DNA of 33,572 bases from FCB group bacterium (GCA_013152375.1 JAADGM010000029.1:1-33572); one strand, 5' to 3'. Numbered from the stretch's first letter, positions 1,731 through 30,794 are shown. The notes: generated from the sequence alone by a model not told the origin. Translations and numbers: made by a program.

Positions 1731-1914
1731 CTCCGTTTAGACATGGCAAAGTTTTATGTCCGGGTCCGCTTAGCTGCGTTCCGCCGGGTGACTGATCAGC
1801 CTTACGATTTAAATGATTTGCGCGCGAACAAATAACAGAAGTAAAAAACCCGGGAACCCCGGACCATGGTACAAGGCGTTAGTCAGGGGTTATACAACAA
1901 ATAAGGAGCTGAAC

Positions 1915-2550
1915 ATGAATTCAAAATCTGAACAAAAATCATCCAAAAAACCCCTCCTGCTGGCGGTCCTGACGGCTCTTGGAGCCTCACTATGTTGCGT
2001 AGGACCCCTCCTGCTGGTCTTTCTCGGTGTTGGAGGAGCCTGGGCAGGGAGTCTGAGTTTCTTTGAGCCCTGGCGTCCTCTTTTCATAGGCCTGACTCTC
2101 ATTTTCCTGGGATATGCCTTTTATCGTATTTACGGCAGATCAAAGCAGGAGACGTGTGAACCGGGAAGTTTGTGCGCCAATCCGAAATCGAACCGCTTTA
2201 ATAAAATCGCTTTGTGGTTCGCCACGATTCTGGTTATTATTTTGCTGGGAATTCCGTATCTGGTGTCAGGATTTGCCTTGGACAGCCCTGTTTCTGAACC
2301 GGGCATACTGAAACCGAACAAATCACTGGTCCTTGCCGTTGACGGAATGACCTGCAGCTCCTGTGCGGTCACGGTGTCAAAAAGCCTTACGAACCTCGAA
2401 GGTGTGACAGATGCCGCAGTTGATCTGGAAAGGGGTACGGCAACCGTAACTTTCGATTCGACACGTGTCACGGCAGAACGCCTGACGGATGCGACAACCA
2501 AAGTGGGTTTCCCATCAGAAAAGCTTAACAATAAGCCGGAAGGAAAGTGA
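1915..2550 (+). CDS. merTP: Mercuric transport protein, MerT fused to a C-terminal MerP-like heavy-metal-associated domain
   Basis: ORF opens at 1813, but ATG 1915 is preceded by AAGGAG. MerT-like LLAVLTALGASLCCVGPLLL with Cys pair in TM1; C-terminal HMA motif GMTCSSCAVTVSKSL. Confidence 0.8.
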   Translation: MNSKSEQKSSKKPLLLAVLTALGASLCCVGPLLLVFLGVGGAWAGSLSFFEPWRPLFIGLTLIFLGYAFYRIYGRSKQETCEPGSLCANPKSNRFNKIALWFATILVIILLGIPYLVSGFALDSPVSEPGILKPNKSLVLAVDGMTCSSCAVTVSKSLTNLEGVTDAAVDLERGTATVTFDSTRVTAERLTDATTKVGFPSEKLNNKPEGK

Positions 2551-2551
2551 A

Positions 2552-4186
2552 ATGAAAAAACTGTTTTTCAAAATCGAGGGAATGACCTGCGACAGCTGCG
2601 CAGAGACTATCCGGAAATCTCTTCAGCAGACGGAACGTATCGAGGCGGATGTCTCCTATCCTGAAGCCCGCGCCTCCGTCACAACCCGGGATGAAAAGAT
2701 CACCTCTTCCCTGCTCATCGGGATCATTGAGAATGCCGGGCCCTACCGCGTAACGGAATTCTCAGAGATTGAAGCTGACACAAAAGACCGAAAGCATCTG
2801 GTGATCATCGGCGGCGGATCGGCGGCTTTTGCCGGCGCTCTCCGGGCACTCGAACTGGGTGCCCGGGTCACAATGATCAATGACGGACTGCCCATCGGCG
2901 GAACCTGTGTGAATGTGGGCTGTGTCCCTTCTAAAACCCTGCTGCGAGCTGCCGATACCCTGCAGCGGGCAAACCGTAATCCCTTCGGGGGAATTGAAAC
3001 ACAGGGGAAACTTTCGGATTTCAGGACTCTGATCGGAGAAAAGCGCCATTTGGTCGAAAGTCTGAGGCTGGAAAAATATATCGGCGTCATAAAAGATAAA
3101 GCTGATTTTCAGCTGATCGAAGGCCGTGCCAGACTTCAGTCACCGACCGGGGTTAGCGTAAACGGTACTTCACTTCGAGCCGATCACATTCTACTGGCTA
3201 CCGGGGCGAGACCCAATATTCCCGCTGTACCGGGTCTGGATCAGGTGCCATACCTTACAAACGCTTCTGCCTTTGAACTCGATTCATTACCGGAATCTAT
3301 GATCGTTTTAGGAGGCCGGTACATCGCTTTGGAACTGGCTCAGCTCTTTGCCAGACTGGGCACCAGGGTCACCCTGGTTCAGCGTTCCGGGCATATTCTG
3401 CCTGATGAAGATACCGACCTTACAGATCGACTGGTCCGGTATTTGACAGATGAGGGTATTGAGATTCTCACTGATACTCAACTGCAAACCGTTGACTCTG
3501 AAGGGGGTCGGGTGAAAGTGAAACTGCTCCATAAAGGCCGTCCCCTCACTGTCACCGCAGAAAAAATACTGGCGGCAACCGGTCGGAAGCCGAATACGGA
3601 GAATATCGGTCTTAAGGAGGCGGGCGTCTCTTTGAACCAGGACGGTTCCATTCTGACAGACGATCTGCTCCGGACGACGGCACCCACAATTTCTGCAGCC
3701 GGGGATGTTCTGGGAAAAAGAATGTTCGTTTACACTGCCGCCTATGAAGGTAAGCTTGCCGTGGAGAATGCTTTTTCTGAGGTTTCAACAAAAACCGATT
3801 ACACGGCCCTGCCATGGGTTGTCTTTACCGATCCCCAGTTGGCAGGTGTCGGACTGAATGAAAGGGAAGCCGGTCAGGCCGGACGTGATATTGAAACAGC
3901 ACGTCTCGAACTGGATAAGATACCACGCGCCATCGCTGCCAGGGATACCCGGGGGTTCATTAAACTGATCCGGGAAAAGGGAACACACAAGCTCCTCGGA
4001 GCCCGGATCCTGGCACCCGAAGGGGCGGAAATCCTCATGGAAATCACCCTGGCTATAAAGTTTGGAATGACTTCCGATCAGCTGACGGAACTCTTCCATC
4101 CTTATTTGACGCTGTCCGAAGGCATCAGACTCGCGGCAATTACGTTTGACAAAGATGTCTCCGAGCTGAGTTGCTGCGCTACCTGA
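2552..4186 (+). CDS. merA: Mercuric reductase with N-terminal HMA domain
   Basis: Start at ATG 2552 after GGAAGGAAAG. HMA GMTCDSCAETI; redox-active GGTCVNVGCVPSK; C-terminal vicinal cysteines VSELSCCAT. Confidence 0.9.
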   Translation: MKKLFFKIEGMTCDSCAETIRKSLQQTERIEADVSYPEARASVTTRDEKITSSLLIGIIENAGPYRVTEFSEIEADTKDRKHLVIIGGGSAAFAGALRALELGARVTMINDGLPIGGTCVNVGCVPSKTLLRAADTLQRANRNPFGGIETQGKLSDFRTLIGEKRHLVESLRLEKYIGVIKDKADFQLIEGRARLQSPTGVSVNGTSLRADHILLATGARPNIPAVPGLDQVPYLTNASAFELDSLPESMIVLGGRYIALELAQLFARLGTRVTLVQRSGHILPDEDTDLTDRLVRYLTDEGIEILTDTQLQTVDSEGGRVKVKLLHKGRPLTVTAEKILAATGRKPNTENIGLKEAGVSLNQDGSILTDDLLRTTAPTISAAGDVLGKRMFVYTAAYEGKLAVENAFSEVSTKTDYTALPWVVFTDPQLAGVGLNEREAGQAGRDIETARLELDKIPRAIAARDTRGFIKLIREKGTHKLLGARILAPEGAEILMEITLAIKFGMTSDQLTELFHPYLTLSEGIRLAAITFDKDVSELSCCAT

Positions 4187-11290: not shown

Positions 11291-13597
11291 CTATTTCAGC
11301 TTGCCAAGTCCCCGTAAGATCTTTTCAGGCGTCACCGGCAGGTTGCGGATACGCACACCACAGGCGTCGTAGATAGCGTTGACTACAGCAGGAGCAGGTC
11401 CGTCAATGGGGATCTCTGCCACAGCTTTGGCGCCATAAGGTCCGGTGGGTTCATGGGTATGGATGAATTCAACCACTACCTCCGGCATGTCCAATGCAGT
11501 ATAAATATGATAGTCATGGAAAGTGGTTACGAGCGGCCGACCTTTTTTATCGAACATCATGTGTTCAGAAAGGGCCATGCCCAGAGACTGGGGAATGGCA
11601 CCCTCTACCTGACCCTCTGCCATGGGTGGATTGATCACCTGCCCTGCATCCGTCACCGAAACGATTTTCTCCACCCGCACGAGACCTGTTTCCGTATCGA
11701 CCGTCACTTCGGCAAAGGTCGCGTTGAAAGGGGGTGGTGAATCATAGCTCATATGAGAGGCCGTTGCCATGAGCTGCCGCTGATTATCCGTATAAAGCGA
11801 ACGGCTGCAGATCTCTCCAAAACTGATCTTCTCCCCATTTTCCGCCACCACAAATTCATCTTTGATTTCAGCCCGACGGGTATTCAGCAACAGTTTGCCC
11901 TGGGAGAGGATTTTAGCCCTGAGTTTTTCCGCTGCTTTCTTAACAGCTCCCCCTGATACAAAGGTTGTACTGGAAGCATAGGCCCCGGTATCGAAAGGCG
12001 TGAGGTCCGTATCCGCAGCATAGACGATGATCCTTTCTACGGGGACTCCCAGGGTCTCAGCGGCAATCTGGGCCAGAACCGTGTCTGCGCCGGTCCCAAG
12101 GTCGGTGGCACCGGTCTGCAGGTTAAAGCTGGCATCTTCATTCATTTTCAAAAAAACAGCCGCCATATCTATACCCGGGATACCCGAACCCTGACAGGCG
12201 GCGGCAACCCCCACGCCCCTCCGGCAGACAGCGGTTTTTTCGGAGCCGCGACGCTCTCCCCAGCCGATGAGTTCAGCACCCCGCTGCAGACAGCGGGTCA
12301 TCCCCGTCGTGTTCAGCTTCATCTCATAACCTTCCCGGCCTTCACCCAGAATTCTTGCAATAGGGATCTCGTCCCCCGGGCTGAAAAGATTTTTCTCCCG
12401 CAGCTCAATGGGATCAACACCAAGGTCAGCGGCAATTTCATCCAGCATGGACTCCAAAGCAAAGAACCCCTGGGGAGCACCATAGCCCCGGTAAGCGCCG
12501 GCCACAGGCAGGTTCGTATAGACGGCATCTGCATGAAGACGAATATTGGGTGCCTTGTACAAAGACAGGGTCTTCTGAGCCGTGACGGACATGACGGTTA
12601 GGGCATGAGGGCCGTAAGCACCGCAATTTTCCAGTATTTTTAAATCGATTGCCGTGATGTGCAGATCAGCATCCAGCCCTATTTTCAGTTTTACGATTTC
12701 CGGATGTCTCGACCGGGCAGCAAAAAATTCTTCTCTGCGGGTCATTTCCATCCGGACCGGCCGGCCGGTTTTCAGGGTCACGGCTGCACAGAGTTCTTCA
12801 TTCAGTATCTCCTGTTTGCCGCCGAATCCGCCTCCGATGCGCGGTTTGATGACCCGGATACGATGCAGGGGGAAATCCAGCACCTCAGAGACGATCCGTC
12901 GTACATGAAAGGGCACCTGTGTCGCCGTACGGATAACCAGTCTTTCATGGTCGTCCAGCCAGGTCAGTGTGATATGGGGTTCTATATGAGCATGCTGGAC
13001 ATAGGGTGTTGAATATTCCCGCTCAAAGACATGGACGGAATTATGAAAGGCTTCATCCACATCGCCCAGGTCAGCCGTTACCCGGGCCGCAATGTTGCGC
13101 CGGGGGTCGTAGAGAAAAGGGTCATCGCTGATCTCACCATGGATCACAACCGGATTGTCGATGGCGTCCCGGGGGTCGAAAATAGCAGGGAGTTCCTCAA
13201 ACTGCACCTCAATCAGGTCAGCAGCCTGTTGAGCGATCTCGGGCGTCTCGGCGGCAACTACGGCAACTTTATCTCCCACATACCGCATCACAGGATTCAA
13301 TATGAGCATATCCCGGGGTGAGGGTTCTGGGTAACCCTGCCCGGCTGTGGTGTAAAAGTGAGGTGGAAAATCCCTATGGGTCAGCACAACAGCCACACCG
13401 GGAAGGGCGGCAGCTTTGGTTGTATCAATATGGGTTATTCTACCGTGAGCTATGGGGCTGTAAAGCAGTTTCAAATGGAGCAGATCGGGCAGTTGAAGGT
13501 CATCGGCAAATACGGCCTTCCCCTTGGCCAGGGCTATCCCATCCACACGAACCGTATTTTTCCCCACCACTTTCATTTTTTGACCTCTGTCAGTCAC
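11291..13597 (-). CDS. xdhD: Xanthine-dehydrogenase-family Mo-binding subunit, XdhD-like (putative selenium-linked hydroxylase)
   Basis: GGGFGGKQEI, GAYRGYGAPQGF, DLGTGADTVLAQIAAETLG and C-terminal GAKAVAEIPIDGPAPAVVNAI; order ygfK / amidohydrolase / FAD / Mo matches E. coli ygfK-ssnA-ygfM-xdhD. Start may be 13576. Confidence 0.85.
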   Translation of the reverse strand: MTDRGQKMKVVGKNTVRVDGIALAKGKAVFADDLQLPDLLHLKLLYSPIAHGRITHIDTTKAAALPGVAVVLTHRDFPPHFYTTAGQGYPEPSPRDMLILNPVMRYVGDKVAVVAAETPEIAQQAADLIEVQFEELPAIFDPRDAIDNPVVIHGEISDDPFLYDPRRNIAARVTADLGDVDEAFHNSVHVFEREYSTPYVQHAHIEPHITLTWLDDHERLVIRTATQVPFHVRRIVSEVLDFPLHRIRVIKPRIGGGFGGKQEILNEELCAAVTLKTGRPVRMEMTRREEFFAARSRHPEIVKLKIGLDADLHITAIDLKILENCGAYGPHALTVMSVTAQKTLSLYKAPNIRLHADAVYTNLPVAGAYRGYGAPQGFFALESMLDEIAADLGVDPIELREKNLFSPGDEIPIARILGEGREGYEMKLNTTGMTRCLQRGAELIGWGERRGSEKTAVCRRGVGVAAACQGSGIPGIDMAAVFLKMNEDASFNLQTGATDLGTGADTVLAQIAAETLGVPVERIIVYAADTDLTPFDTGAYASSTTFVSGGAVKKAAEKLRAKILSQGKLLLNTRRAEIKDEFVVAENGEKISFGEICSRSLYTDNQRQLMATASHMSYDSPPPFNATFAEVTVDTETGLVRVEKIVSVTDAGQVINPPMAEGQVEGAIPQSLGMALSEHMMFDKKGRPLVTTFHDYHIYTALDMPEVVVEFIHTHEPTGPYGAKAVAEIPIDGPAPAVVNAIYDACGVRIRNLPVTPEKILRGLGKLK

Positions 13598-14066
13598 CGG
13601 TTTGTTCTTCTCCTTCCGTCACATTTTCGTGCATAGCTGCTGCCACCGGTTTGACATATCCGGTACAGCGGCACAGGACTCCGGAAAGGGCTTCGCGAAT
13701 GGTCTCAATGTCTGGTTTAGGATGGGTTCTCTTCACGGCTTCCAGGGCAAGCAGCATGGCCGGCGTACAATAACCGCATTGGATTGCTCCGGTTTTCAGA
13801 AAGGCTTCCTGTAGAGGCGTCACACCCTGTTTCAGGTTGAAATGTTCAAGCGTCTCCACGGTTTTCCCTGCCAGCGTCTGAACCAGGATCAGGCAGGCAT
13901 TCTGCGCCCGCCCGTCAATCAATACCGTACAGGCACCGCAGCTGCCTTCATCACAGCCATGTTTCACGCTGTAAAAACCACTCTTGCGTAAATGCTCCAG
14001 TAAGGTTTCCCCTGGAGGCGTCTTTGCCGAATGACGTTTTCCGTTCAGTATAAAATGTACTTTCAC
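13590..14066 (-). CDS. 2Fe-2S subunit of a molybdenum hydroxylase
   Basis: GCDEGSCGACTVLIDG plant-type Fe-S motif and QCGYCTPAML...LCRCTGY second cluster motif. Confidence 0.92.
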   Translation of the reverse strand: MKVHFILNGKRHSAKTPPGETLLEHLRKSGFYSVKHGCDEGSCGACTVLIDGRAQNACLILVQTLAGKTVETLEHFNLKQGVTPLQEAFLKTGAIQCGYCTPAMLLALEAVKRTHPKPDIETIREALSGVLCRCTGYVKPVAAAMHENVTEGEEQTGD

Positions 14067-14827
14067 AGCTTTTCCCGAAGCCTGTCGAAGGCAATTTTAA
14101 GCAGCATTTTTTTATAGGCCCGTGTGCCGTATCTGTCCGATTCAAACTGCTCTGAAGCAGCTTCGCTGAAGTTGCGGATCGCCTCACCCTTGAACGCTTT
14201 CTCAGCACAAGTTTCGGTCCAGTAATTCCGGGCGCGCCCGCCAGTACAGAAATTGAATCCATGGGTAGATTTCGCGCCGCAAACAATCATGAAAGCCGGT
14301 GCGGACGGAAGGAGGGCATATCGTTCAAGGGCGGAGTGTTCAAGGGTCTTCCGTGAGATTTCAATATGTGTGAGAATGCCGTTGCCGTCCCAGTCCTCGA
14401 GGCTTGTTTTTATACTACCAGCTTTCCCGGTAATGTGAAGCACCCCTCTCAGAGCGTGGAACAGTACACAGAGCTCTGAATCGGTTCTCATGCGGGCTAT
14501 TTCACCGCCCAGTGTCCTCTGGTTACGGATGTTTTTCGAACTGACGGAATAGCGGGCAGCCTCGGCCAGGATCACGCCCGGTGTATCCCATTGAAATTCC
14601 ACCAGACTCTGCAGGGTCAGGCCGGCGCCGAAAACCAGTGCTGCCGCTTCCTCCCGAACGTCCGTTTCCAGTAACCCGTTCAGATCGATGAGGGTCGTCA
14701 CCATCGGGTCCTGCTCACTGACCAGATAGGAACCACCTGCCAGAAAACGGGCTCCGGCAGTTTGACGAAATTCCAATGCTTCGGCAATGGTTTTCGGTTT
14801 TACAATGCTTTCAAGGGAGGACCACAT
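14063..14827 (-). CDS. ygfM: FAD-binding subunit of a molybdenum hydroxylase, YgfM-like
   Basis: ARFLAGGSYL, IRNQRTLGGEIARM and position between 2Fe-2S and amidohydrolase genes; 254 aa. Confidence 0.8.
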   Translation of the reverse strand: MWSSLESIVKPKTIAEALEFRQTAGARFLAGGSYLVSEQDPMVTTLIDLNGLLETDVREEAAALVFGAGLTLQSLVEFQWDTPGVILAEAARYSVSSKNIRNQRTLGGEIARMRTDSELCVLFHALRGVLHITGKAGSIKTSLEDWDGNGILTHIEISRKTLEHSALERYALLPSAPAFMIVCGAKSTHGFNFCTGGRARNYWTETCAEKAFKGEAIRNFSEAASEQFESDRYGTRAYKKMLLKIAFDRLREKL

Positions 14828-14830
14828 GGT

Positions 14831-16222
14831 TCAGATGAAGTTAATCCCAGTATTTTTTCCGGCCCGCTCCAGCATCTCTGCACTGATGCGGTTGTGCTCT
14901 GTTATAAGGGCCGCCTCGTCAACAGCAGATAACTGCTCCCGGATGAGAACTTTTCCCTTGACGATGAGATAATCTACAGGAGCGGTTCTCACAGCAAAAA
15001 CCAGTGCTGCCAGGGGATCGCTCATTCCGCCGGCGTATTCGATCCGATCCATGTCAAACAGTGACAGATCGGCTTGTTTGCCCACAGCCAGTTCGCCGAT
15101 ATCATCCCGGCCCAGAACGGCCGCTCCACCCCGCGTGGCCATCCGCAGGACCTCTCTCGCCGTGAGCCAGCAGTCGGAGGCTCTCAATCTGGACAACAGC
15201 AGGGCATTGCGGATCTCCAGCAGCATATTCCCGGAATCGTTGGATGCCGAGCCATCCACTCCCAAACTTACGTGAACACCCGCCTGCAGCAGTTCTCTGA
15301 TCCGGGCAATGCCTGAACCGAGACGCATATTTGAGGATGGACAGTGGGATATGCCGGCGCCTGCCTCACCCAGTTCTTCAATTTCAGCATCGGATAAATG
15401 GACGGCATGAGCAAACCAGCTGCTGCCGGTGAGCCAGTCCAGGGATTTTATATAAGCAACCGGCCGTTTACCCGTATTTTCCAGACAATATCTTTCTTCG
15501 TCCAGGGTTTCGGCCAGATGTGTGTGCAGTCTGAGACCGTTCGCCCGGGCGAAGTCTGCCGTCTCACGCATGAGGTCAGGGGTAACGGAAAAGGGGGAAC
15601 AGGGTGCTAAAGAGATCCTCACCATGGCGCCGGGGCTCTCATCGTGCCACCGTTTCAGCAGTCTTTCGGTGTCCTGTCGAATTTCCGTCTCGGTCTGAAC
15701 TGTGTCATCCGGAGGTAATCCGCCCATGGATTTCCCCAGTGACATTGACCCTCGGGTCGGTTGAAAACGGATCCCCAGATCCCGGGCAGCTTCTATTTCC
15801 GTATCGATGAGTGTCGGACTGGCCTGGCGGGGAAAGAGATACAAGTGATCCGAACTGGTAGTGACGCCGGACTTCATTAATTCCAGCAGACCGGTTTTCG
15901 TGCTGACAGCAACAGCTTCGGTGGTGAGTTCCCGCCAGACTTCATAATGATTTGTCAACCAACTGAACAGCGGCTGAGTCTGCATGAGAGGTATATTCCG
16001 CGTGAGGGTCTGATACAGATGATGGTGAGTATTGATAAACCCGGGCAGGACAACCATCCGGTGAGCATCAATCGTTTCATCCACGGGAACACCTTCGTAA
16101 TCCTCTCTGCCCAGGGAAACGATGCGGTCGTCCTCAATGAGGATATGCCCGCCGGAAAATTCTTCTCCGGCGTCATTTTGCGTTGCGACGCGCAAAGGGT
16201 TTTTAATCAGGATACGCTGCAT
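14831..16222 (-). CDS. Amidohydrolase closely resembling 8-oxoguanine deaminase (ATZ/TRZ family)
   Basis: PGFINTHHHLYQTLTR, TTSSDHLYLFP, RGSMSLGKSMGGLPPD, APCSPFSVTPDLMR, SHCPSSNMRLGSGI and GVDGSASNDSGNM. ORF track start is 16261; ATG 16222 (MQRILIKNPLRV) more likely. Confidence 0.8.
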   Translation of the reverse strand: MQRILIKNPLRVATQNDAGEEFSGGHILIEDDRIVSLGREDYEGVPVDETIDAHRMVVLPGFINTHHHLYQTLTRNIPLMQTQPLFSWLTNHYEVWRELTTEAVAVSTKTGLLELMKSGVTTSSDHLYLFPRQASPTLIDTEIEAARDLGIRFQPTRGSMSLGKSMGGLPPDDTVQTETEIRQDTERLLKRWHDESPGAMVRISLAPCSPFSVTPDLMRETADFARANGLRLHTHLAETLDEERYCLENTGKRPVAYIKSLDWLTGSSWFAHAVHLSDAEIEELGEAGAGISHCPSSNMRLGSGIARIRELLQAGVHVSLGVDGSASNDSGNMLLEIRNALLLSRLRASDCWLTAREVLRMATRGGAAVLGRDDIGELAVGKQADLSLFDMDRIEYAGGMSDPLAALVFAVRTAPVDYLIVKGKVLIREQLSAVDEAALITEHNRISAEMLERAGKNTGINFI

Positions 16223-16277
16223 GTTAAATTCTCTTGCTTCTACGATGATCGTTCCGAACAACCGCTGTTCCGGTTAG

Positions 16278-16451: not shown

Positions 16452-19400
16452 CTACCCGTGTCGGCCTGATGCCTGATGGATACCCGCAGCCAATTGAGCC
16501 CGGATAATCCCCAGCGTTTCAGAATTCAGCAGGGCCGTCATTTCTGGTCCGCTGTAGCGGAATCCCTGCGCAGAAAGCTGCAGTGTAGTTTTCCGGTGGT
16601 TTTTTAAAAACTGCAAGACCTCACCGTCAAAATAAAACCCGTCCTGTTCTGTTTCAAATGCCTCCCGGGAGAGAAAGACCTTCGGCTTGTCTGCAAATGG
16701 CCGGCCGGCAGTGGGGCAAAAGGTTGTGCAGTTTCCGCACTCGTTGCAGAAATCACCGATATTGAGAACCTGGTGGGCTTGATCCAATTTAAAGGTCACT
16801 GATTCACTGATCTGAATTTTATCCATCTCTCCGGTAACGGTCTGCAGCTGATATTCCCGGGGCTCTACACGATAGCTGATATTGGCCAGATTCGGGCAGA
16901 CACTCACACAAATATTGCAGACTTCATCACAATAAAGACAGCGGGCTGCTTCCCTCCGGGCTTCATCTTCCGTCAGGGTCCGGCTGATGAGGTTGAAATC
17001 AACCTGTTCGTGGGAAATGAAGTCCTCCATCACCGCACCGTACTCCCGGTGCGACAGCTTTTTCTGATAGTCAACGTCTTTCAGATTCACGGACCGGCTG
17101 GTTGTATTATTGTATTTTTCCCGGGCACTTTCCAGAATGCAGGCAGCCGCTCTCCGCCCGTCACCTACAGCATTGACCACAGACGAAGCCCCTCTTAACG
17201 CATCACCCCCGTAAAAGACCTGCCCGCCGGTGGATGTCCCTGACGCGGCGCTGACCACATCTACCCCGTTTTCGAGCAGCCCTGCCTCCACATCCTGACC
17301 GATGGCCGGAATGAGAGTGTCAAACTGCAGGATCCGGGAGGGTGCTGATGATCTGATGGAAACCCTGCGACCGCTGGCATCCTTTGCCGTACCGGGTTCC
17401 ATTACGGTACAGTGAACCCGAAGCCTCCCATCCGATGCTTCAATTTTTTCCGGCGCCAATAGCTGGATGAGGTTGATCCCTTCTTTCAAAGCATCCTGTA
17501 TCTCATCCTGATCCGCCGGCATTTCACGCCGGGTTCTGCGATAGAGTATGGAGACTTCACCTGCCGGCCCCACCAGCCGACGGGCGGTCCTGGCCGCGTC
17601 GATAGCCGTATTTCCGCCGCCGATGACTGCAACGCTCCTGCCGATTTGCACTTCTTTACCCGCTTTCACAGCAGCTAAAAACTGAATGGGATCGAGCACA
17701 CCCGGAAGGTTTTCACCGGGAATCCCCAGGTTTTTATTCAGTGCTGCCCCCACGGAGATATAAATAAAATCATAGTCTGCCCGGAGGATCTTCAATCGGT
17801 CACGGTCGATATGCTCGCCGTGGCGGATATCCACACCGAGCTTCTCAATGGTCTCAATATCCCCTGCGATAACTTCATCCGGCAGTCTGAAAACCGGAAT
17901 ACCTCGTGAGACCATTCCTCCTGCCCGGGAATCCGCCTCAAAAACGGTGACTTCAAAGCCTTCCAACGCCAGAAAATAGGCGCAGGAAAGTCCCGAGGGA
18001 CCTGCGCCGATGATTGCGGCGGTCTGCCCCGTCGGTTCCGAGCCATCAGGGACCATATGCCCGGAGCGCTCAATGAGGAAGCGTTTGATCTCGCGGATGA
18101 GCAGGGTATTGTCGAGATTGTTTCGGGTGCATTTAAGTTGACAGAGATGATCACATACATAGCCCGTGACCCCCGGGAAAGGGTTCGTGCGCAGAACGAC
18201 TCCGGCAGCCCTTTGAAAGTCCCCTATGGCAGTGTAATACAAATAACGGGGAATTTCCTGATCGGTCGCGCAATACTCGACACACGGCGCTTTGATGCAG
18301 TCAAAGGATTCCAGATTCCGGTCGGTCTTAATGGTTTCGAAGGCATCCGGTCTGGTCCGGTAGCGGGGATCTTCGCAGACCGTTTCGGCATAACCGGTGA
18401 GGACGGCCAGACCTGCCTGTGCAGCTGTGGCTTCCGTCGGTGCCAGAGACTTGATATAATCTTCAAGGGAGCATACCGAATGCGATTTGAAAACATGGGT
18501 AAGGGCTTCGAGATACTGCAGCAGCCGCGTATAGCCGCCGGGCTTCAGCAGGTCGCTGCAGGTTGTTACGGGTTTGATATCGCAGCCGATCACTGAAACA
18601 ATATTGAAAGCATCCACACCGGCTGAAAAAGAAATATCCAGTTTGCCCCCAAAGCTTTGCTGCAGGCGCGCCGCCAGATTGATGCTGATGGGATGCAGCG
18701 GACGCCCACTGAGATAGGCCATGGATTCGGAAGGCGGAAAAACCGACTTGTGATTCTCTACTTCCAGGGTATTGGTGAGTTTCAGGCCGAAGTGCAGTCC
18801 TTTATCCCGGGCACACTCCCGGAGGTTCTCCAGCAGTATTAGGGCTTCATCATATTTCAGATCATGCCGGAAAGCTTCATCCGGTACAATCACCTGATCA
18901 TATCCCAGCCGGACATTCAGGATCTCACGCACCCGGTCCGCACCCAGCAGGGTTGGGTTCAGCTTGATCGTAGTGTGATAGCCCCGGTCTTCCAGAAAAT
19001 AGCGGCCGATCTTTTCAATTTCATCCGGTGGACACCCGTGCATCGTGGATACCGTCAGGCTCTCCGAAATCCGGGCGGGGATATCAATATCTTTAACGGC
19101 CGGATAAAAAGACGAAAGACGGTCGAGTTTCTCGCTGAGCTGCTCTGAGGAATCCTCCATCAGATCCAGAAAATGCTGTACATTCGCGCTGCGTATACCC
19201 TTTAGATCATAGCCTGCGCTCATATTGAAAATAACGCCGGGACCCTTTGTAGTAATCCAGGAAAATTTTTCTCTCAACAGGTGAATGAGGATCCAGGCAT
19301 TGAGATATTCTTCATGGGATTGCCGCAGTTTCAACTCCTGTGACCATTCACAGTTGTAGCCTTCATCTTCCATGTCAATACAGGGCTTGGCGACTTCCAG

Positions 19401-19676
19401 TTCATCCAGTGTCTGGATCGTCTTCAGCTCAATATAGCGGGCACCGCAAAGCCAGGCAGCTATGATATTCTGGGAAAGCTGAGTATGGGGTCCTGCGGCC
19501 ACGCCGATGGGGGTCTCCAGGATTTCCCCGTATCGTTCCATTCTGAAAACATCATTGGGATCAGGGTGAAAAAAAAGGTCTGAGTAGATTCCAAGGATGG
19601 AGCTATTTTGCTCAAATTCAGTCAGAATTCTGCTCAACAGCTTTTCGATCGGAAGGGGTGTCAGTCGATCAGACAT
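16452..19676 (-). CDS. ygfK: YgfK-family putative selenate reductase / iron-sulfur flavoprotein
   Basis: 1074 aa: DHOD-like N-terminus (PIGVAAGPHTQLSQNIIAAWLCGARYIELKTI), GltD-like Cys region (CDHLCQLKCTRNN), FAD site AAIIGAGPSGLSCAYFLALEGFEVTVFE, and C-terminal ferredoxin motifs CLYCDEVCNICVSVCP and CNECGNCTTFCP. Confidence 0.9.
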   Translation of the reverse strand: MSDRLTPLPIEKLLSRILTEFEQNSSILGIYSDLFFHPDPNDVFRMERYGEILETPIGVAAGPHTQLSQNIIAAWLCGARYIELKTIQTLDELEVAKPCIDMEDEGYNCEWSQELKLRQSHEEYLNAWILIHLLREKFSWITTKGPGVIFNMSAGYDLKGIRSANVQHFLDLMEDSSEQLSEKLDRLSSFYPAVKDIDIPARISESLTVSTMHGCPPDEIEKIGRYFLEDRGYHTTIKLNPTLLGADRVREILNVRLGYDQVIVPDEAFRHDLKYDEALILLENLRECARDKGLHFGLKLTNTLEVENHKSVFPPSESMAYLSGRPLHPISINLAARLQQSFGGKLDISFSAGVDAFNIVSVIGCDIKPVTTCSDLLKPGGYTRLLQYLEALTHVFKSHSVCSLEDYIKSLAPTEATAAQAGLAVLTGYAETVCEDPRYRTRPDAFETIKTDRNLESFDCIKAPCVEYCATDQEIPRYLYYTAIGDFQRAAGVVLRTNPFPGVTGYVCDHLCQLKCTRNNLDNTLLIREIKRFLIERSGHMVPDGSEPTGQTAAIIGAGPSGLSCAYFLALEGFEVTVFEADSRAGGMVSRGIPVFRLPDEVIAGDIETIEKLGVDIRHGEHIDRDRLKILRADYDFIYISVGAALNKNLGIPGENLPGVLDPIQFLAAVKAGKEVQIGRSVAVIGGGNTAIDAARTARRLVGPAGEVSILYRRTRREMPADQDEIQDALKEGINLIQLLAPEKIEASDGRLRVHCTVMEPGTAKDASGRRVSIRSSAPSRILQFDTLIPAIGQDVEAGLLENGVDVVSAASGTSTGGQVFYGGDALRGASSVVNAVGDGRRAAACILESAREKYNNTTSRSVNLKDVDYQKKLSHREYGAVMEDFISHEQVDFNLISRTLTEDEARREAARCLYCDEVCNICVSVCPNLANISYRVEPREYQLQTVTGEMDKIQISESVTFKLDQAHQVLNIGDFCNECGNCTTFCPTAGRPFADKPKVFLSREAFETEQDGFYFDGEVLQFLKNHRKTTLQLSAQGFRYSGPEMTALLNSETLGIIRAQLAAGIHQASGRHG

Positions 19677-20511
19677 GTCTTTTTTTCAAAATAGACAATA
19701 TTGCAAACTGGAGAATATTTTTCAGCGCCTTACGGCGGTATGCCGCTGAGGCCCTGATATCTGTGATGGGAGCGATCTCACTATCGATGATGGCCAGATG
19801 TTCCGCGAGGTTATCCGGATCCCGGTTCAGCTCTTCGGTAAAGCGGTTCAAAGACACCACTGTGGGGGCCACCGCTCCCGCCGTGATGGAGATAAATTCC
19901 ACTGCTGCCCCGGTTTTGCGATATACCAATGCACAGTTTACAACCGATATGGCCATGGTCCGGCGCAGACCCAATTTATGAAATTCCGATTGTGCACCAT
20001 AGTCTTTCAAACGGACAGTGCTAAGCAGCTCATCCGGCCGCAGTGCTGTCCTGCCTGGTCCCAGCAGAAAATCCTCTAATGGCAGAACCCGACTGCCTTG
20101 CGAAGATTCCAAAATGATCTCTGCCCCAAATGCCAGAAGACCCGGGAGCAGATCACCTGCGGGAGAGGCGTTACAAATGTTGCCTCCTACTGTAGCTCTG
20201 TGCCGGATCTGCAGGCCGGCGAACTTTTCGCAGGCTGCCTGCAGGGCTGCAAACTTGCTGGTCACCCTTGCATGCCGGCGGAGGTCCTCCACTGTGGTCA
20301 GGGCACCAATCTCAATCCCATCCCGGGTTTCACGGATACTTTTCAGGTGCGGGATTTTCTTCAAATCGATGAGGGTTGCCGGGAGAGCTTCTCCTCGTTC
20401 AAAACGGGGCATGAGGTCAGTGCCACCTGCCAGCAAAAGGGAATCCGACAGCCCTGTTTTGGCGGTCAACTCAAAGTAGGTCTGCAAATTTTCAGGTTGA
20501 AGGTAAATCAT
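19669..20511 (-). CDS. FAD-binding subunit of a molybdenum hydroxylase
   Basis: LLAGGTDLMPRFERGE and IRHRATVGGNICNASPAGDLLPGLLAFGAEI (FAD-binding CO dehydrogenase flavoprotein-type motifs). Confidence 0.9.
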   Translation of the reverse strand: MIYLQPENLQTYFELTAKTGLSDSLLLAGGTDLMPRFERGEALPATLIDLKKIPHLKSIRETRDGIEIGALTTVEDLRRHARVTSKFAALQAACEKFAGLQIRHRATVGGNICNASPAGDLLPGLLAFGAEIILESSQGSRVLPLEDFLLGPGRTALRPDELLSTVRLKDYGAQSEFHKLGLRRTMAISVVNCALVYRKTGAAVEFISITAGAVAPTVVSLNRFTEELNRDPDNLAEHLAIIDSEIAPITDIRASAAYRRKALKNILQFAILSILKKRHV

Positions 20512-20999
20512 TATCTTCGGTCTCTACTCACGGATTCAATAGCATCCACAATTTTCTGATAACCTGTGCAGCGGCAGATATTCCCGGACAGGTCTTGCCT
20601 GATCTCCTCCCGCGTGAGCTGCTCATGGTCCCGGAGCATCTGTTCTCCACTGAGGATCATTCCGGGTATGCAGAAGCCGCACTGAACAGAATGATGATCG
20701 ATAAAGGCCTGCTGCAGGGGCGTAAGGTTGCCGTTCCTGGACAATCCTTCGATAGTTGTGATCTCCATGCCGTGCGTTTCCACGGCAAATATCAGGCAGG
20801 CGTCCACAGTCAGCCCATCCAGCAGCACCGTGCAGGCCCCGCATTCGCCCTCGCCGCAGACTTCTTTGGTTCCTGTTAAACCCAGCTCTTCTCTTAGAAA
20901 ATCCAGCAACCGTAAATGAGTGGGGATACGCCTGCGAACGGGAGTTCCGTTAACCGTCAGTTCAAGATCAAAATAATCCGTGTTTGACACACTCAGCAT
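20511..20999 (-). CDS. 2Fe-2S subunit of a molybdenum hydroxylase
   Basis: CGEGECGACTVLLDGLTVDAC and QCGFCIPGMI...GNICRCTGYQKIVDAI. Confidence 0.92.
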   Translation of the reverse strand: MLSVSNTDYFDLELTVNGTPVRRRIPTHLRLLDFLREELGLTGTKEVCGEGECGACTVLLDGLTVDACLIFAVETHGMEITTIEGLSRNGNLTPLQQAFIDHHSVQCGFCIPGMILSGEQMLRDHEQLTREEIRQDLSGNICRCTGYQKIVDAIESVSRDRR

Positions 21000-22237
21000 A
21001 AATCTGCCTGCCGTAAAAACTCCCGCACGGCCGGGAAAACCGGTTCTACCGGAGACGGGATCATAATTTTCCTTTTGGCGGACTCAATATCTTTCAGTCC
21101 GGAGCCGGTGATGAGCAGCACTGCGGATTGCATCCCGGTCACCAGGTTTTCATGCACAGCCTTCTGATACCCGGCATAGGCGGAAGCTGCTGCGGGCTCG
21201 GCGAAGATGCCCGTACGGGTGGCCAGGTCTTTCTGACCCTTTAGAATCTCATCGTCCGTCACCGTGATACCGAAACCGCCGGAGGACTTCACGGCATTCA
21301 GAGCCTTTAAACCATCCCTTGGGAAATCCACACAAATGCTGTCAGCCACGGTATGAGCGTCAACGGGAGCAAGATCAGCCCCGGACTCCAGGGCTTTGAC
21401 TATAGCAGCGGAATTCTCCGCCTGTACGGCGATAAGTCCCGGTATAGTCTCGATCCAGCCCAATTGCTGCAGATCGTAAAATCCTTTGTAAACACCGCCG
21501 GCAATACAGCCGTCACCCGTCGGAATAAATACCCAGTCCGGCATCTGCCAGTTCAACTGTTCGGCAATTTCCAAAGCCACCGTTTTTTTACCCTCCGACA
21601 GCATTGGATTAATGCCTGTACTTCGGGAGTACCACCCGAACTGTTCAGCAACCTGCATCGAGAGGTCAAAAGCTTCATCATAAGTCCCGCCCACGGGAAT
21701 GAGCGTGGCGCCGTACTGCAGGATCTGGGTGAGTTTGGCCGCCGGTGCGGTAGCCGGGGCAAGAATGACCGCCCGAAGACCATAATAGGCTGCCAGCGCT
21801 GCCAGTGAAGCTGCAGCATTGCCGGTGGAAGCAGCTATCAGAGTCTTCTTTTGTAGTTCCATTGCGTGTTGTACTCCCACCGCAGTGGCCCTGTCTTTCA
21901 GCGAGCCGGAAGGATTGCGTGTATCGTCTTTGAGATAAAGCTGCTGCTCCTCGTCAGAAGATCCCCGGGGGACCTTCAGCAATGGGGTCCCGCCCACATG
22001 CAAACCGGATGTCAGGGGAGTTCGCTTTAACGGCAGGAGCGGGCCATAGCGCCAGATCGAGGGTTCGGGATTTGCTTTGAGTAAATCTTTTGACCAGACC
22101 TTCTTTAAACGGTCATAATGATAAACGACATCCAGATTATTCCCGCACTCACAGCGGTAACGAAAGGGTTCCGGGGCAAATTCTTTACCGCAGCAGACAC
22201 ATTTGTACCCCAGCACAAATTGCAGATTTTCAGGCAT
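20993..22237 (-). CDS. Threonine-synthase-like PLP-dependent enzyme with N-terminal Cys-rich ribbon
   Basis: YKCVCCGKEF...YRCECGNNLDVVY ribbon; PLP-lysine motif LKDDTRNPSGSLKDRATAVGV; AASTGNAAASLAALAAYYGL. Confidence 0.85.
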   Translation of the reverse strand: MPENLQFVLGYKCVCCGKEFAPEPFRYRCECGNNLDVVYHYDRLKKVWSKDLLKANPEPSIWRYGPLLPLKRTPLTSGLHVGGTPLLKVPRGSSDEEQQLYLKDDTRNPSGSLKDRATAVGVQHAMELQKKTLIAASTGNAAASLAALAAYYGLRAVILAPATAPAAKLTQILQYGATLIPVGGTYDEAFDLSMQVAEQFGWYSRSTGINPMLSEGKKTVALEIAEQLNWQMPDWVFIPTGDGCIAGGVYKGFYDLQQLGWIETIPGLIAVQAENSAAIVKALESGADLAPVDAHTVADSICVDFPRDGLKALNAVKSSGGFGITVTDDEILKGQKDLATRTGIFAEPAAASAYAGYQKAVHENLVTGMQSAVLLITGSGLKDIESAKRKIMIPSPVEPVFPAVREFLRQADLC

Positions 22238-23703
22238 CAGCTGTATTTTTTTAACAATCCCGTCCGTTCATTAAATTCATCTATCCGGGCATCCCACTGG
22301 TCAACCTGGCTGTATCGGTCAATCCAGTAATTTTCATCGTACCACTGCGCATTCAGCTCTTCCACGGTTTTACCCTGCTGTTCAACCCAGGTAAAATATT
22401 TCAGATTGTGCATGCGTTTTTTATCACGATAACTGAGCTCCAGCAGCGCCTCCGTACTGATGCCCAGCAGCCGGCCTTCGTAATCGATCCCGGCTTCTGC
22501 AGGAGTGTATTCACCATGCCGCTGTCTCTCTTCAGCCAGACGGGATTGATACATCTCCATGGAATCCGTGGCAACTGTGAAGATAAAGTGAGAAGCATCC
22601 CATTCGAAATATTTGGCCATTTTAATGGCTCCCATGATATTGGCAATTGAAGAAATCCCAAGGTCATCCAGCTTGTCAACCAGACCGCCATCAATTCCCC
22701 TGGCTTTCAGGAGGGCTCTTCCCGCAGGTTCATTGAACAGTCTCATGATCCGGATATTGGGCTCGTCGTCAATACCGGCAACGATATCCATATTTTTCAG
22801 ATTGTGGATCCAGGGCACATGTTTGTCCCCAATCCCTTCAATTCTGTGACCCCCAAATCCGTTGTACAGCAGTGTAGGACATTGCAGGGCTTCACCGGCA
22901 CCGATCTTAATGAGCGGGAATTTCTGACGCAGATAATCCCCGGCCCCCAGCGTTCCGGCCGATCCCTGGGTTAAAAACAAACCGCTGAATTTATCGCCGT
23001 TTCCTTTCATCCCGTCGAAAACTTCCGCCATGGCTTTGCCGGTGACGGCGAAATGCCAGAGGGGGTTGCCAATCTCTTCAAACTGGTTCAGGACTACAAT
23101 GGAATCCCCCCGTTCCCGCTTTAAAGCTTTTACCTTGTCGTATATTTCCTTCACATTGCTCTCACAGCCCGGTGTGGCAAAGATCTCGGAACCCACCTTT
23201 TCCAGCCATTCGAAACGTTCACGGGACATCTCTTCCGGAAGGACTGCAATGGATTTACATCCTAACAGATAGGAATCATAGGCGCCGCCCCGGCAATAAT
23301 TCCCGGTTGAAGGCCAGAGGGCTTTTTGTGAGCCGGGGTCGAACTTCCCTGTGATCAGTTTCTCCACCAATGGGCCGAAGGTTGCCCCCACTTTGTGGGC
23401 ACCGGTGGGAAAATATTTCCCCAGTAAAATGATAATTCTGGCTGAAACTCCCGTTAATTCCGGCGGAAGTTCAAGAAAGTTGACCGACCCGAAACCGCCG
23501 CCGAATTTCACCGGCTCATTCTTCCAGGTGATGCGGAACAGATTCAACGGATTCAGATCCCACAGTCCGATCTTTTTCAGTTTCTGCTGTATACCGTCCG
23601 GTATGAGTCGGGGATTTGCCATCTGCCGGTAAGTCGGGAGAATAATCTCCTGTTCACGGCACTGCTTGATGGTATTTTCGAGTATTTTTTCGCTCTTTGT
23701 CAT
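22237..23703 (-). CDS. Fold-type-II PLP-dependent enzyme (cysteine synthase / tryptophan synthase beta-like), function unknown
   Basis: GKYFPTGAHKVGATFGPLVEKL with candidate PLP lysine; WPSTGNYCRGGAYDSYLLGC substrate loop; 488 aa. Does not read like YgeX (diaminopropionate ammonia-lyase). Confidence 0.7.
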   Translation of the reverse strand: MTKSEKILENTIKQCREQEIILPTYRQMANPRLIPDGIQQKLKKIGLWDLNPLNLFRITWKNEPVKFGGGFGSVNFLELPPELTGVSARIIILLGKYFPTGAHKVGATFGPLVEKLITGKFDPGSQKALWPSTGNYCRGGAYDSYLLGCKSIAVLPEEMSRERFEWLEKVGSEIFATPGCESNVKEIYDKVKALKRERGDSIVVLNQFEEIGNPLWHFAVTGKAMAEVFDGMKGNGDKFSGLFLTQGSAGTLGAGDYLRQKFPLIKIGAGEALQCPTLLYNGFGGHRIEGIGDKHVPWIHNLKNMDIVAGIDDEPNIRIMRLFNEPAGRALLKARGIDGGLVDKLDDLGISSIANIMGAIKMAKYFEWDASHFIFTVATDSMEMYQSRLAEERQRHGEYTPAEAGIDYEGRLLGISTEALLELSYRDKKRMHNLKYFTWVEQQGKTVEELNAQWYDENYWIDRYSQVDQWDARIDEFNERTGLLKKYS

Positions 23704-23726
23704 TTGATATTCTTTCTTATAGTCAA

Positions 23727-24899
23727 TCAGGTTTTCAGCAGAGACATAAGTTGATTTTTCGGATTGGGAACGGTCATTAAGAAGGTCATGGCGGCAATGA
23801 TAAAGGGTTTATAGCTCGCTTCCAGATAGGTCTGCGGGCGGTATTGTTCAAATACGCCGGCGCTGACTTCACCCTGTTCACAGCTTACACCGGAAATATC
23901 TGCGGGCAGACAGTGCATATAGAGGGCCCGTCCATTTTTTGTCAGAGCCATCTTCGACTCGTTACATTCCCAGCTGCTGAACTGCCGGTTTTGTGCCAAA
24001 CCTTCCTGTTCCAGTTCAGTAAGGCCCCGCCGGTCACCTTCACTCAATAAACGGGTTCTCTTCTGCATTACTGCAAAGGGTGCCCAGGATTTCGGATAAA
24101 CGACATCCGCTCCCTGAAAGGCTTCCTCCATGGAATGGGTGAGTTCAAACTTTCCGCCCGAAGCTTCAGCCTGCTGACCGGCCAGCGTCACTACTTCGGG
24201 GAGCAGGTCATAGCCCTCCGGGTGCGCCAGCGTCACCTCCATTCCGAATCTCGTGAGTAAACCGATTATCCCCTGGGGAACGGATAACGGTTTGCCGTAA
24301 CTCGGAGAATAGGCCCAGGTCATGGCGATTTTTTTGCCTTTTAAATTTTCCAAAGATCCGAAATGCCGGCACAACATGGCCAGATCACTCATGCTCTGGG
24401 TAGGATGGTCAATATCGCACTGGAGGTTGACAAGTCCAGGTCTTTGGTGCAAAGTACCTTCGGAAAATCCCAGGTCCAGCGCTTCTGCTACCTGCTGCAT
24501 GTAGGTGTTGCCCTGACCGATATAGAGATCATCCCGGATACCGACAACCCGCGTTAGAAAGGACAGCATATTGGCCGTCTCACGAACTGTTTCGCCGTGT
24601 GCGATCTGGGATTTTTCCTCATCCAGATCTACGACGGAAAGTCCCAGCGCGTCGGCGGCAGAAGCAAAGCTGTATCTCGTGCGCGTTGATTTGTCCCGGA
24701 AGATGGAAACTGCAATACCAGTGTCAAACTGGCGGAACGACTTCCCCTGCCGATGCAGTGCTCTGAAGATTTCCGCCACTTTCAGCGTAGCTTCCAGGTC
24801 CGCCCGGGATTTCTCCCATGTGAGGAGAAAATTGCGGCCGTAGTGGTCAAGTTCGTTCCAGCGAATGCTGGTCAGTATCTCATTCATCTCTTTTTGCAT
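23727..24899 (-). CDS. ygeW: YgeW-type knotted carbamoyltransferase
   Basis: SIFRDKSTRTRYSFASAADALG carbamoyl-phosphate motif; MHCLPADISGVSCEQGEV; CDIDHPTQSMSDLAML. Confidence 0.88.
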   Translation of the reverse strand: MQKEMNEILTSIRWNELDHYGRNFLLTWEKSRADLEATLKVAEIFRALHRQGKSFRQFDTGIAVSIFRDKSTRTRYSFASAADALGLSVVDLDEEKSQIAHGETVRETANMLSFLTRVVGIRDDLYIGQGNTYMQQVAEALDLGFSEGTLHQRPGLVNLQCDIDHPTQSMSDLAMLCRHFGSLENLKGKKIAMTWAYSPSYGKPLSVPQGIIGLLTRFGMEVTLAHPEGYDLLPEVVTLAGQQAEASGGKFELTHSMEEAFQGADVVYPKSWAPFAVMQKRTRLLSEGDRRGLTELEQEGLAQNRQFSSWECNESKMALTKNGRALYMHCLPADISGVSCEQGEVSAGVFEQYRPQTYLEASYKPFIIAAMTFLMTVPNPKNQLMSLLKT

Positions 24900-24961
24900 T
24901 CTTCTGTTGAATCCCTCAATCGGAGTTGATAATCTTTATAAGACGGTGAGCCGGGCCTGCC

Positions 24962-26161
24962 TCAGCGTGTTTTCAGATAGGTACCGGGAATCGCAGCATA
25001 CATGGCGGCTGACTTCACCAATTCTTCCTTCCAGGTTTTTTCATTGGGCGCATGTGCCTGATCTTCATGTCCGGGCCCGAACCCGATGCAGGGAATACCG
25101 AATCTTCCCATAATCGCCACTCCGTTGGTGGAAAAAGTCCACTTGTCAACCAGCGGTTCAGATTGAAACAGTCCCTCATAAGCCCTGACCAGAGTCCGGG
25201 TGGCAGGATGGTCCTCTTCCACCAGCCAGGTGGGAAAATACGACTCACTGGGATAGGTGAGCCCCTTATAGGAAGGACGGGCGTAGTTGTACATCTCGAC
25301 ATCCGCCTGAACCTCCTGAACTGAAGGCAGACGACGAATTTCTTCCAGGGCTGACTCCGCCGTTTCACCCATCGTCAGACGACGGTCGATGGAGACGGAG
25401 CACCCGTCGGCCACGGCACAGCGGGAGGGCGAACTGAAGAAAATTTCGGACACGGTGAGACTGCCCTTGCCAAGAAAATCATGGTCTTTCAAATGTTTGT
25501 TGAGTTCAGCCAGTTCGGTAATGATTCCCGTCATTTTATAGATGGCATTATCCCCGCGTTCCGGTGCAGACCCATGCGCGCTGAGACCATGTGTTGAGAC
25601 TTTTATTTCCATACGGCCCCGGTGTCCCCGGTAAATGTTGCACGCAGTCGGTTCGGTGATCACTACAAATTCAGGTTTGATTCCCAGCTCCCGGATCAGA
25701 TACTGCCAGCAGAGACCGTCGCAGTCTTCTTCTTGTACAGTTCCCGTGACGAGCAATGTGTAGTCATCCTCCAGCCTCAGATCTTTGATGATCCGGCCGG
25801 CATAGACCATGGCTGCCATGCCTCCTTCCTGGTCGGAGGCCCCCCTGCCGCCGATGATCACATCATCTTCTGTTCCCTTGTAAGGATCAAATTGCCACAG
25901 ATCAGGATCTCCCACCCCCACCGTATCGATATGGGCATCCATGGCAATTAAATGACTCCCTCTGCCGATATACCCGAGGATGTTCCCCATGGGATCGATC
26001 TCCACACGGTCAAAACCGTTCTGCTCCATTTCTGCTTTGATCCTGAGAATTAACTTTTCTTCCTGACAACTCTCACTGGGGATGGCGATCATATCCCGCA
26101 AAAAGCGGGTTATTTCCGGCTCATAATGCTTCGCTCTGTTATAAATTTCGCTGTATTCCAT
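24962..26161 (-). CDS. ygeY: YgeY-family M20 metallohydrolase (selenium-metabolism-linked)
   Basis: [32 protein letters not shown] and [16 protein letters not shown]20 motifs; next to ygeW. ORF track start 26197; ATG 26161 ([16 protein letters not shown]) more likely. Confidence 0.85.
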
Positions 26162-26169
26162 CTTTTCCC

Positions 26170-27492
26170 CTATCCAATCTGCTGGATTTTTTCCCAAAGC
26201 TTCACAGACTCAAGTCTGGCATTAGCGAGAATTTCATCTTCATTGATACTTACGAATTTATTCGCCCTGATCCTGAATTTACCCCGTGTAACCACGTCAC
26301 AGGGCCGCTGCATCCCGCTTAAAATATGACCGGCAACATTGTACTCGGTGAATTTGGTGCGGGGATGATAATCATAGACGGCAAAGTCAGCGTGATATCC
26401 TTTTTCCAAAAGTCCGATCTTCTGGTTGAAAAGCCTGCTGGCAATGGTGGCATTCTGCTTAAACAGCAGGTTCAGGTAATCAATGTTTCGGTCGCGTCCT
26501 GAAATGTGAGAACTCCGGATCAGCTCCCCTTCTTTGGCTTCAATGAGCATATTGGACTGCATGCCGTCCGTTCCCAGCCCAACCGTGAGTTTCCGGGTGA
26601 GGTCACCCGGCATCAGGCCCACCCGGTTATTGGCATTTGACGTAGGACAGTGGATCAGGAAGGCCCGGGCTTTCTTAACGGCTGCTACATCCGCTTCAGT
26701 CAGATGAACTCCGTGGATTATCAGACTGTTTTTGTTCAGCAGTTCCAGCTTCATCAGCCTGTCCAGTACCGAGTCAAAACCCCGGTCAAGGGCATCCTGC
26801 TGATCAGCCTTATCTTCTCCCACGTGAATATGAACCCCTGGATTATCAAATTTATCGAGATGACCTGCTATAATTTTCAGGGAGGTATCGGAAAGGGTGA
26901 AAGAAGCGTGCAGCCCCATCATCGGGTGCACATAGGGATGGTTTGAAAAATCGCGAATCGCCACCAGGTTTTCGTTCAGCGCCGCCTCGAAGCGCTGAGG
27001 ACCGTTGCGGTCCGTGACCTCAAAAGCAGTCGTGAGACGAACGCCAAAGCGGTTGGCGACTTCCACAAGTCTTGATATGGAACCGGAAATGAAGTTCTGA
27101 CTCGAATGGTGATCCATGATGGTCGTTACGCCGGCCCGTAGGCAAGCCAGGATGCCGGCCTGATAGGAAGCATAAGTCGAGGCCTCGTCCAGCGCCAGAT
27201 CAAGTTTCCACCAGACATTTCTAAGTTTTTCGATGAAACTTTTAGGAATCCTGCGGGGCGACGGCATACCGAGGGCCAGTGCCGAATAAAGATGCGTGTG
27301 ACCGTTGATCATACCGGGGACGGCGGTTTTGCCTTTCATATCGATGATTTCATCGTAATCGCTTTGATTCGAAGGGGTGCCCCCCACATGATCGATAATT
27401 CCCTCATTACTGGAGATGCAGCCGTTAGCGATATACACAGGGGTACCTGCCGGATTTACGATCCGCAGATTCTTAAACAGTGTTTTGCTCAT
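26170..27492 (-). CDS. ssnA: SsnA-family putative aminohydrolase
   Basis: [76 protein letters not shown]; resembles E. coli SsnA. Confidence 0.85.
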
Positions 27493-30044: not shown

Positions 30045-30794
30045 ATGTCTCATTTCATGAATTTTATTGAGCTTTTCACAGAAAATCCGTTTAGCTTAAA
30101 AGGAGCCTGCATCGGACTCCTTGGGGGAGGCGGCAAGACCACACTGCTGCAGAGGCTGGGACTTGAATTCAGCTTTGTATTTGAAAAGGTCCTGCTGTCA
30201 TCGTTAACCCAATCCGCCTATGTTCCTGATGAGGAAGTTGTCTTTTATGAAACTCTGGAAGAAAATAATTTTTCTGAAATATACAGCCGCAGCCGCACCC
30301 TGTTCGTGATGCATCCGGGAGAAAAAGACCATAAATTGAAGGGGCTCACTCCAAGCGAACTGAAACTATTGTGGAAAAAATCGGAACTGTGTGTGTTTGA
30401 ATGCGACGGCGCAAGACAGCACCCTCTTAAAGCTCACTCGTCATACGATCCGGAAATACCGGGATTTGCCACGCATGTGATCATCCTGGTGGGCGCCGAG
30501 GTAGTGGACTCCACCTGTTCAGCAGGGCTCGTGCACAGGCCGCAGGAGTTCATGAGAACCTGGGAGATACAGACGGAGACAACCCTCAGTGCCGATTTCA
30601 TCGCCCGGGTTATCACCTCTTCAAGAGGCTATCTGAGTAAGGTCAGCGGGGCTCCCTCCCTGCTCTACTTTGTGAACAAATGGGATATCGCTCCTGACAA
30701 AGCCCGGGAACTGGCCGGTGCGATCAGCCGATGTACTGACCACCCCGTATTTTTCGGCTCTCTCAAAGACAGTACCTATATGCGGGTTCAATGA
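30045..30794 (+). CDS. yqeC: YqeC-type selenium-dependent hydroxylase accessory protein
   Basis: GACIGLLGGGGKTTLLQRLG P-loop-like motif; FECDGARQHPLKAHSSYDPEIP; position before mocA and yqeB. Confidence 0.8.
   Translation: MSHFMNFIELFTENPFSLKGACIGLLGGGGKTTLLQRLGLEFSFVFEKVLLSSLTQSAYVPDEEVVFYETLEENNFSEIYSRSRTLFVMHPGEKDHKLKGLTPSELKLLWKKSELCVFECDGARQHPLKAHSSYDPEIPGFATHVIILVGAEVVDSTCSAGLVHRPQEFMRTWEIQTETTLSADFIARVITSSRGYLSKVSGAPSLLYFVNKWDIAPDKARELAGAISRCTDHPVFFGSLKDSTYMRVQ

Follow-up and report, generated by a model that had tools for sequence, protein, structure and literature searches.

The gene in question, at 14831-16222 on the minus strand, encodes a predicted deaminase and lies in a 33 572-nucleotide stretch of DNA (the window) from an uncultured marine FCB group bacterium (GCA_013152375.1, JAADGM010000029.1:1-33572). 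It belongs to a minus-strand run that reads from 29837 down to 11291 in the order xanthine dehydrogenase (XDH)-like molybdenum (Mo) subunit, SsnA, YgeY, YgeW, two pyridoxal phosphate (PLP) enzymes, 2Fe-2S and flavin adenine dinucleotide (FAD) subunits, YgfK, the deaminase, and then FAD, 2Fe-2S and XdhD-type Mo subunits. Intergenic gaps are at most 68 bp, save for the 229 bp separating YgfK from the deaminase; no promoter-like site was found in that gap ahead of the deaminase gene, and its terminator-like sites lie on the opposite strand. The whole run, including the second, XDH-like complex, is one pathway cluster, and the same gene order is found in about 24 related contigs, far beyond chance. 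Its gene set is that of the reductive urate pathway (PMC12507026; PMC12990295), less YgeX and with the HyuA-like genes outside the window: YgfK, SsnA (below its cut-off), YgeW and YgeY occur together within 16452-27492, the combination taken to mark a reductive urate cluster.

The deaminase gene

By sequence, the product of 14831-16222 is a member of the 8-oxoguanine deaminase family of amidohydrolases, not an SsnA, as the first-pass annotation of this DNA had proposed. It scores 615.6 bits with the 8-oxoguanine deaminase model NF006055 (cut-off 532), against 160.5 bits with the SsnA model (cut-off 444) and 146.5 bits with the guanine deaminase GuaD model (TIGR02967, cut-off 375.4). Identity is 47.4% to the solved enzyme 7ww2 and 46.5% to 3hpa; at all 19 of the 19 active-site columns probed (metal and substrate residues) the three proteins agree, while several of these columns differ between the window's enzyme and SsnA. 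The three motifs quoted in that annotation are present, and closely match both solved enzymes. In our trees the protein is set apart from the SsnA clade (split support 100/100) and placed inside a Marinimicrobia-Cloacimonadota clade; this clade, and its place inside a urate-reduction operon, distinguish it from 7ww2 and 3hpa. The most likely activity on this evidence is deamination of 8-oxoguanine to urate.

The annotated length of 476 aa corresponds to a TTG start at 16261 in the same frame. We prefer the ATG, which gives 463 aa, because homology to the solved members begins at residue 3-4 of that shorter form.

The adjacent Mo complex

The deaminase and the three genes after it form a unit whose open reading frames abut or overlap (spacing 3 to -8 bp), so the complete FAD/2Fe-2S/Mo hydroxylase reported earlier does adjoin it. 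The FAD subunit (14063-14827, minus strand, 254 aa) is YgfM-like, with weak best matches to the models for glyceraldehyde dehydrogenase beta (3.1e-12) and Se_sel_red_FAD (YgfM; 6.6e-12), and 33% identity to E. coli YgfM over 149 aa. The 2Fe-2S subunit (13590-14066, minus strand) matches XdhC-type models at 1e-40 and has eight cysteines, with both cluster motifs complete. The Mo subunit (11291-13597, minus strand) resembles E. coli XdhD (38.3%, 523 bits) more than XdhA (36.1%, 471 bits), and groups with XdhD, the single XdhD reference in the tree, at a Shimodaira-Hasegawa-like approximate likelihood ratio (SH-aLRT) of 98; XdhA and a xanthine-dehydrogenase-like set fall outside.

Glu606 of E. 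coli XdhD has been modelled as orienting urate and is absent from XdhA (Li et al., PMC12507026). Its equivalent (LGEG) and an EPSP-type motif are present in 11291-13597 and in every XdhD-type subunit inspected, and missing from XdhA and from the window's own XDH-like Mo subunit (27561-29837). Since the E. coli XdhD-YgfM pair is reported to convert urate by reduction into 2,8-dioxopurine (yanthine; PMC12507026), the complex at 11291-14827 more likely consumes the product of the deaminase than makes its substrate. We take it to be the counterpart of XdhD/YgfM, a predicted urate-to-yanthine reductase with 11291-13597 as the putative urate 6-reductase subunit.

Its occurrence elsewhere points the same way. 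An XdhD-type subunit was found in five genomes that have YgfK and no detected deaminase (G016, G025, G031, G035, G092), which is why we assign the complex to the urate pathway with or without the deaminase; in the two deaminase-less genomes inspected it adjoins HyuA-SsnA-YgfK. In families f23 and f25 the XdhD-type complex lies beside SsnA-YgfK and the deaminase elsewhere. The single-contig genome G017 has the order FAD-FeS-Mo-HyuA-SsnA-YgfK-YgeY, with the deaminase about 17 kb past YgfK, beside a PLP enzyme. The idea that the adjacent complex is a dedicated partner of the deaminase was rejected as the main reading, on the five genomes and on families f23 and f25.

This genome also contains a third Mo hydroxylase (contig C101, L098 9896-13572), in which the 2Fe-2S and Mo parts are fused. 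It was rejected as the true XdhD; it groups with 4-hydroxybenzoyl-CoA reductase.

Distribution and interpretation

We surveyed 199 genomes of Marinimicrobia (Fidelibacterota), which are drafts. The deaminase was found in 74 (67 over the cut-off and seven partial), YgfK in 66 and both in 58, a co-occurrence with a Fisher p of 1e-24 to 1e-26, uncorrected for kinship. Wherever the two genes share a contig (36 genomes) they are on the same strand with YgfK upstream, and 31 of the 36 pairs are at most 3 kb apart. An XdhD-type subunit is present in 59 of the 62 genomes counted as having deaminase and YgfK, a count that includes four genomes of family f19, two of which were seen to have a short YgfK-like protein. 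In f19 the deaminase-Mo unit and the SsnA cluster are on different contigs. This family was considered as an instance of the deaminase-Mo unit without a urate pathway; that was rejected, because G001 and G008 have a YgfK-like protein of 654 aa beside SsnA (L107 2728-4689; L108 11477-13438), where 1050-1100 aa is usual. The YgfK detection threshold of 1e-150 had missed it.

The reading that we favour, and hold to be probable, is that the window encodes the reductive, oxygen-independent urate pathway in a form belonging to Marinimicrobia (Fidelibacterota), fed by an 8-oxoguanine-deaminase-family enzyme. The XDH-like complex (27561-29837 with 19669-20999) would convert xanthine to urate, and the deaminase would produce urate directly by hydrolysing the 2-amino group of 8-oxoguanine. 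A 2016 review describes that deamination as yielding urate and an entry to degradation (PMC5270733). The deaminase may also convert guanine to xanthine, as no guanine deaminase over the cut-off was found either here or in any of the 199 genomes of the phylum, CDA (cytidine deaminase)-type guanine deaminases being checked only in part (four PF00383 proteins over the cut-off in this genome were not sorted further). Urate would then be reduced at C6 to yanthine by the XdhD-type complex (11291-14827), the ring further reduced and opened by YgfK and SsnA, and the product passed through a HyuA-like enzyme, YgeW and YgeY onward towards diaminopropionate. Family membership, gene order, co-inheritance and the XdhD grouping were obtained here, while the reactions are those established biochemically for the E. 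coli and clostridial pathways; the substrate of the deaminase and its feeding of the urate reductase we infer.

Several observations weigh against this reading. Members of the deaminase family are promiscuous, acting on isocytosine, guanine and alkylated guanines, and the two solved enzymes fall in a different sub-clade from the window's protein. The tree that separates the protein from SsnA leaves TrzN near the 8-oxoguanine deaminase family on a long branch, where its placement relative to the family is unsafe (E. coli GuaD is likewise a long branch of unsafe position), and the trees hold no AtzB or NdmH (N2,N2-dimethylguanine hydrolase) sequence. The window's SsnA scores 381.6 bits, under its curated cut-off of 444. 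A close homologue of the deaminase in Cloacimonadota lies away from urate-pathway genes. Finally, eight of the 66 YgfK genomes have no detected deaminase, from which we take it that the deaminase is an accessory step or that those drafts are incomplete.

Other roles for the deaminase have to be set beside the favoured one. It might be the lineage's guanine deaminase, with guanine passing to xanthine, then to urate by the XDH-like complex and on to yanthine, and with 8-oxoguanine a minor substrate. The lack of any GuaD over the cut-off among the 199 genomes, though guanine is a main purine, speaks for this, as do the XDH-like complex in the same operon and two metagenomic family members that turn guanine into xanthine (PMC6186785). 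Characterised enzymes of the cluster are slow on guanine, however, with kcat/KM values no higher than 2.2e3 per M per s compared with 1e5 to 1e6 for GuaD (PMC13054789); the partly checked PF00383 proteins soften the argument from absence; and in two Rhodobacterales loci (L083, L085) the deaminase lies near a GuaD homologue, so that deaminating guanine is probably not its role there. We regard this role as the main rival to the favoured one, though an unlikely one. Alternatively, the deaminase could act on some other 2-aminopurine or a pterin (N2,N2-dimethylguanine, isoxanthopterin or isocytosine-like bases) salvaged alongside urate, since the promiscuous cluster contains such enzymes. But 2paj, which we take to be a pterin-type enzyme, matches the protein at 239 bits versus 442 bits for 7ww2, and the operon is a purine pathway. 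NdmH enzymes carry the marker residues C,Q,N,N (PMC13054789), where the window's protein and both solved 8-oxoguanine deaminases have C,S,S,M; it thus has neither this CQNN marker nor the SSII marker of AtzB, the fourth marker position being placed by a fixed 48-residue offset. Such a substrate seems to us improbable.

The first-pass annotation had further suggested C8 hydroxylation of guanine by the adjacent Mo complex, with the deaminase then turning the resulting 8-oxoguanine into urate. Put more broadly, 8-oxoguanine would be made from guanine by one or other Mo hydroxylase complex of the operon, and guanine would enter the reductive pathway without guanine deaminase or xanthine. The tight four-gene unit 229 bp from YgfK fits this proposal, as does the separation of that unit from the SsnA cluster in family f19, and guanine needs some route where no guanine deaminase was found. 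For the adjacent complex the suggestion is not supported: the tree, the Glu606 equivalent and the EPSP motif make it XdhD-type, it sits beside HyuA-SsnA-YgfK in other families, and it is also present in the five genomes that have YgfK but in which no deaminase was detected. The route is more plausible through the XDH-like complex, which is the likelier C8 hydroxylase, but whose expected substrate is xanthine; our literature search yielded no Mo hydroxylase that makes 8-oxoguanine from guanine. We give a C8-first route through either complex little credence.

It was only in 2025, and in gut bacteria, that the reductive urate pathway was elucidated. The favoured reading would extend it, in one version, to a phylum that is uncultured and mostly marine, with a recurrent added entry enzyme. 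The term '8-oxoguanine' is absent from the text of the main pathway paper (PMC12507026), and the published pathway accounts that we examined do not mention the entry step. If the reading is right, the breakdown of 8-oxoguanine would yield energy or nitrogen and not serve clean-up alone. The reading also raises the question of how guanine is broken down in a phylum with no recognisable guanine deaminase.

Other genes of the operon and related clusters

Upstream of the deaminase, YgfK (16452-19676, minus strand, as are all the operon genes that follow), the predicted yanthine-reducing flavoenzyme, scores 900.7 bits with TIGR03315 (cut-off 835) and is 37.6% identical to E. coli YgfK over 1085 aa. 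The second complex has its FAD subunit at 19669-20511 (XdhB model, 6.5e-47), its 2Fe-2S subunit at 20511-20999 (XdhC model, 1.8e-56) and its Mo subunit at 27561-29837; the last has classical xanthine dehydrogenase residues at the probed columns, and groups in the tree with XDH-like proteins, not XdhD. YgeW carbamoyltransferase (23727-24899) scores 601-621 bits, over its cut-offs, and YgeY hydrolase (24962-26161) 678 bits with TIGR03526 (cut-off 321). SsnA (26170-27492), the predicted ring-opening hydrolase after YgfK, has SsnA as its best NCBIfam match, is 32.8% identical to E. coli SsnA and has nearly the same probed active-site residues.

No YgeX (diaminopropionate ammonia-lyase) was found over the cut-off in the genome. 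Two PLP enzymes recur in related clusters where YgeX is expected, and one of them may replace it: a threonine-synthase-like protein at 20993-22237, over the cut-off of threonine synthase models and weakly similar to YgeX, which is a candidate stand-in, and a 488-aa protein of cysteine-synthase fold at 22237-23703 (cysK model 7e-27, below the cut-off; Pfam PALP). On the plus strand at 30045-33238, divergent from the operon, are genes of the kinds that mature selenium-dependent Mo hydroxylases: YqeC, MocA-like, YqeB and XdhC-family. TIGR03172 and TIGR03309 exceed their cut-offs there, and there are best matches of MocA and XdhC type. One HyuA-like gene is just past the window behind them (contig C115, L099 241-1513), and another is on contig C30. 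A frameshift suspected in the former was rejected, as the interruption is a run of N.

The E. coli uricolytic cluster (ygeW-ygeX-ygeY-hyuA ... ygfK-ssnA-ygfM-xdhD, PMC12507026) shares with the window YgfK, SsnA, YgeW, YgeY, a YgfM/XdhD-type complex, YqeB/YqeC/MocA maturation genes and the order YgfK-amidohydrolase-FAD-Mo. It differs in that the window has the 8-oxoguanine deaminase in the ssnA slot and SsnA some 10 kb off (9.9 kb), as the first-pass annotation had observed, separate Fe-S and Mo subunits, an operon that also takes in the XDH-like complex, a pair of different PLP enzymes in place of YgeX, and no GuaD. The clostridial reductive variants (C. difficile UacX/UacY; C. sporogenes XdhAC) have in common with it the urate-to-yanthine step, SsnA and YgeY, whereas the window uses YgfK and YgeW and adds the deaminase.

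The deaminase has similar urate-pathway neighbourhoods outside the phylum too, in Acidobacteriota, Spirochaetota and Bacillota. Within 10 kb of it are YgfK in Acidobacteriota (L058) and Treponema (L084), SsnA in L042, L058 and Peptococcaceae (L080), and an XdhD-type subunit on a Planctomycetota contig (L076); at other loci a plain XDH-like enzyme is often near. In three Cloacimonadota loci (L030 11400-12869, L032 and L034) the deaminase is apart from urate-pathway genes, and in L030 its neighbours are a Maf gene on one side and on the other a protein of Amidohydro_3 (Pfam scan), the family to which Pfam assigns UacY. At 1813-4186 on the plus strand, a MerT-like transporter with a heavy-metal domain is followed by a flavoprotein that, judged from its sequence, resembles mercuric reductase and carries a metal-binding domain at its N-terminus.

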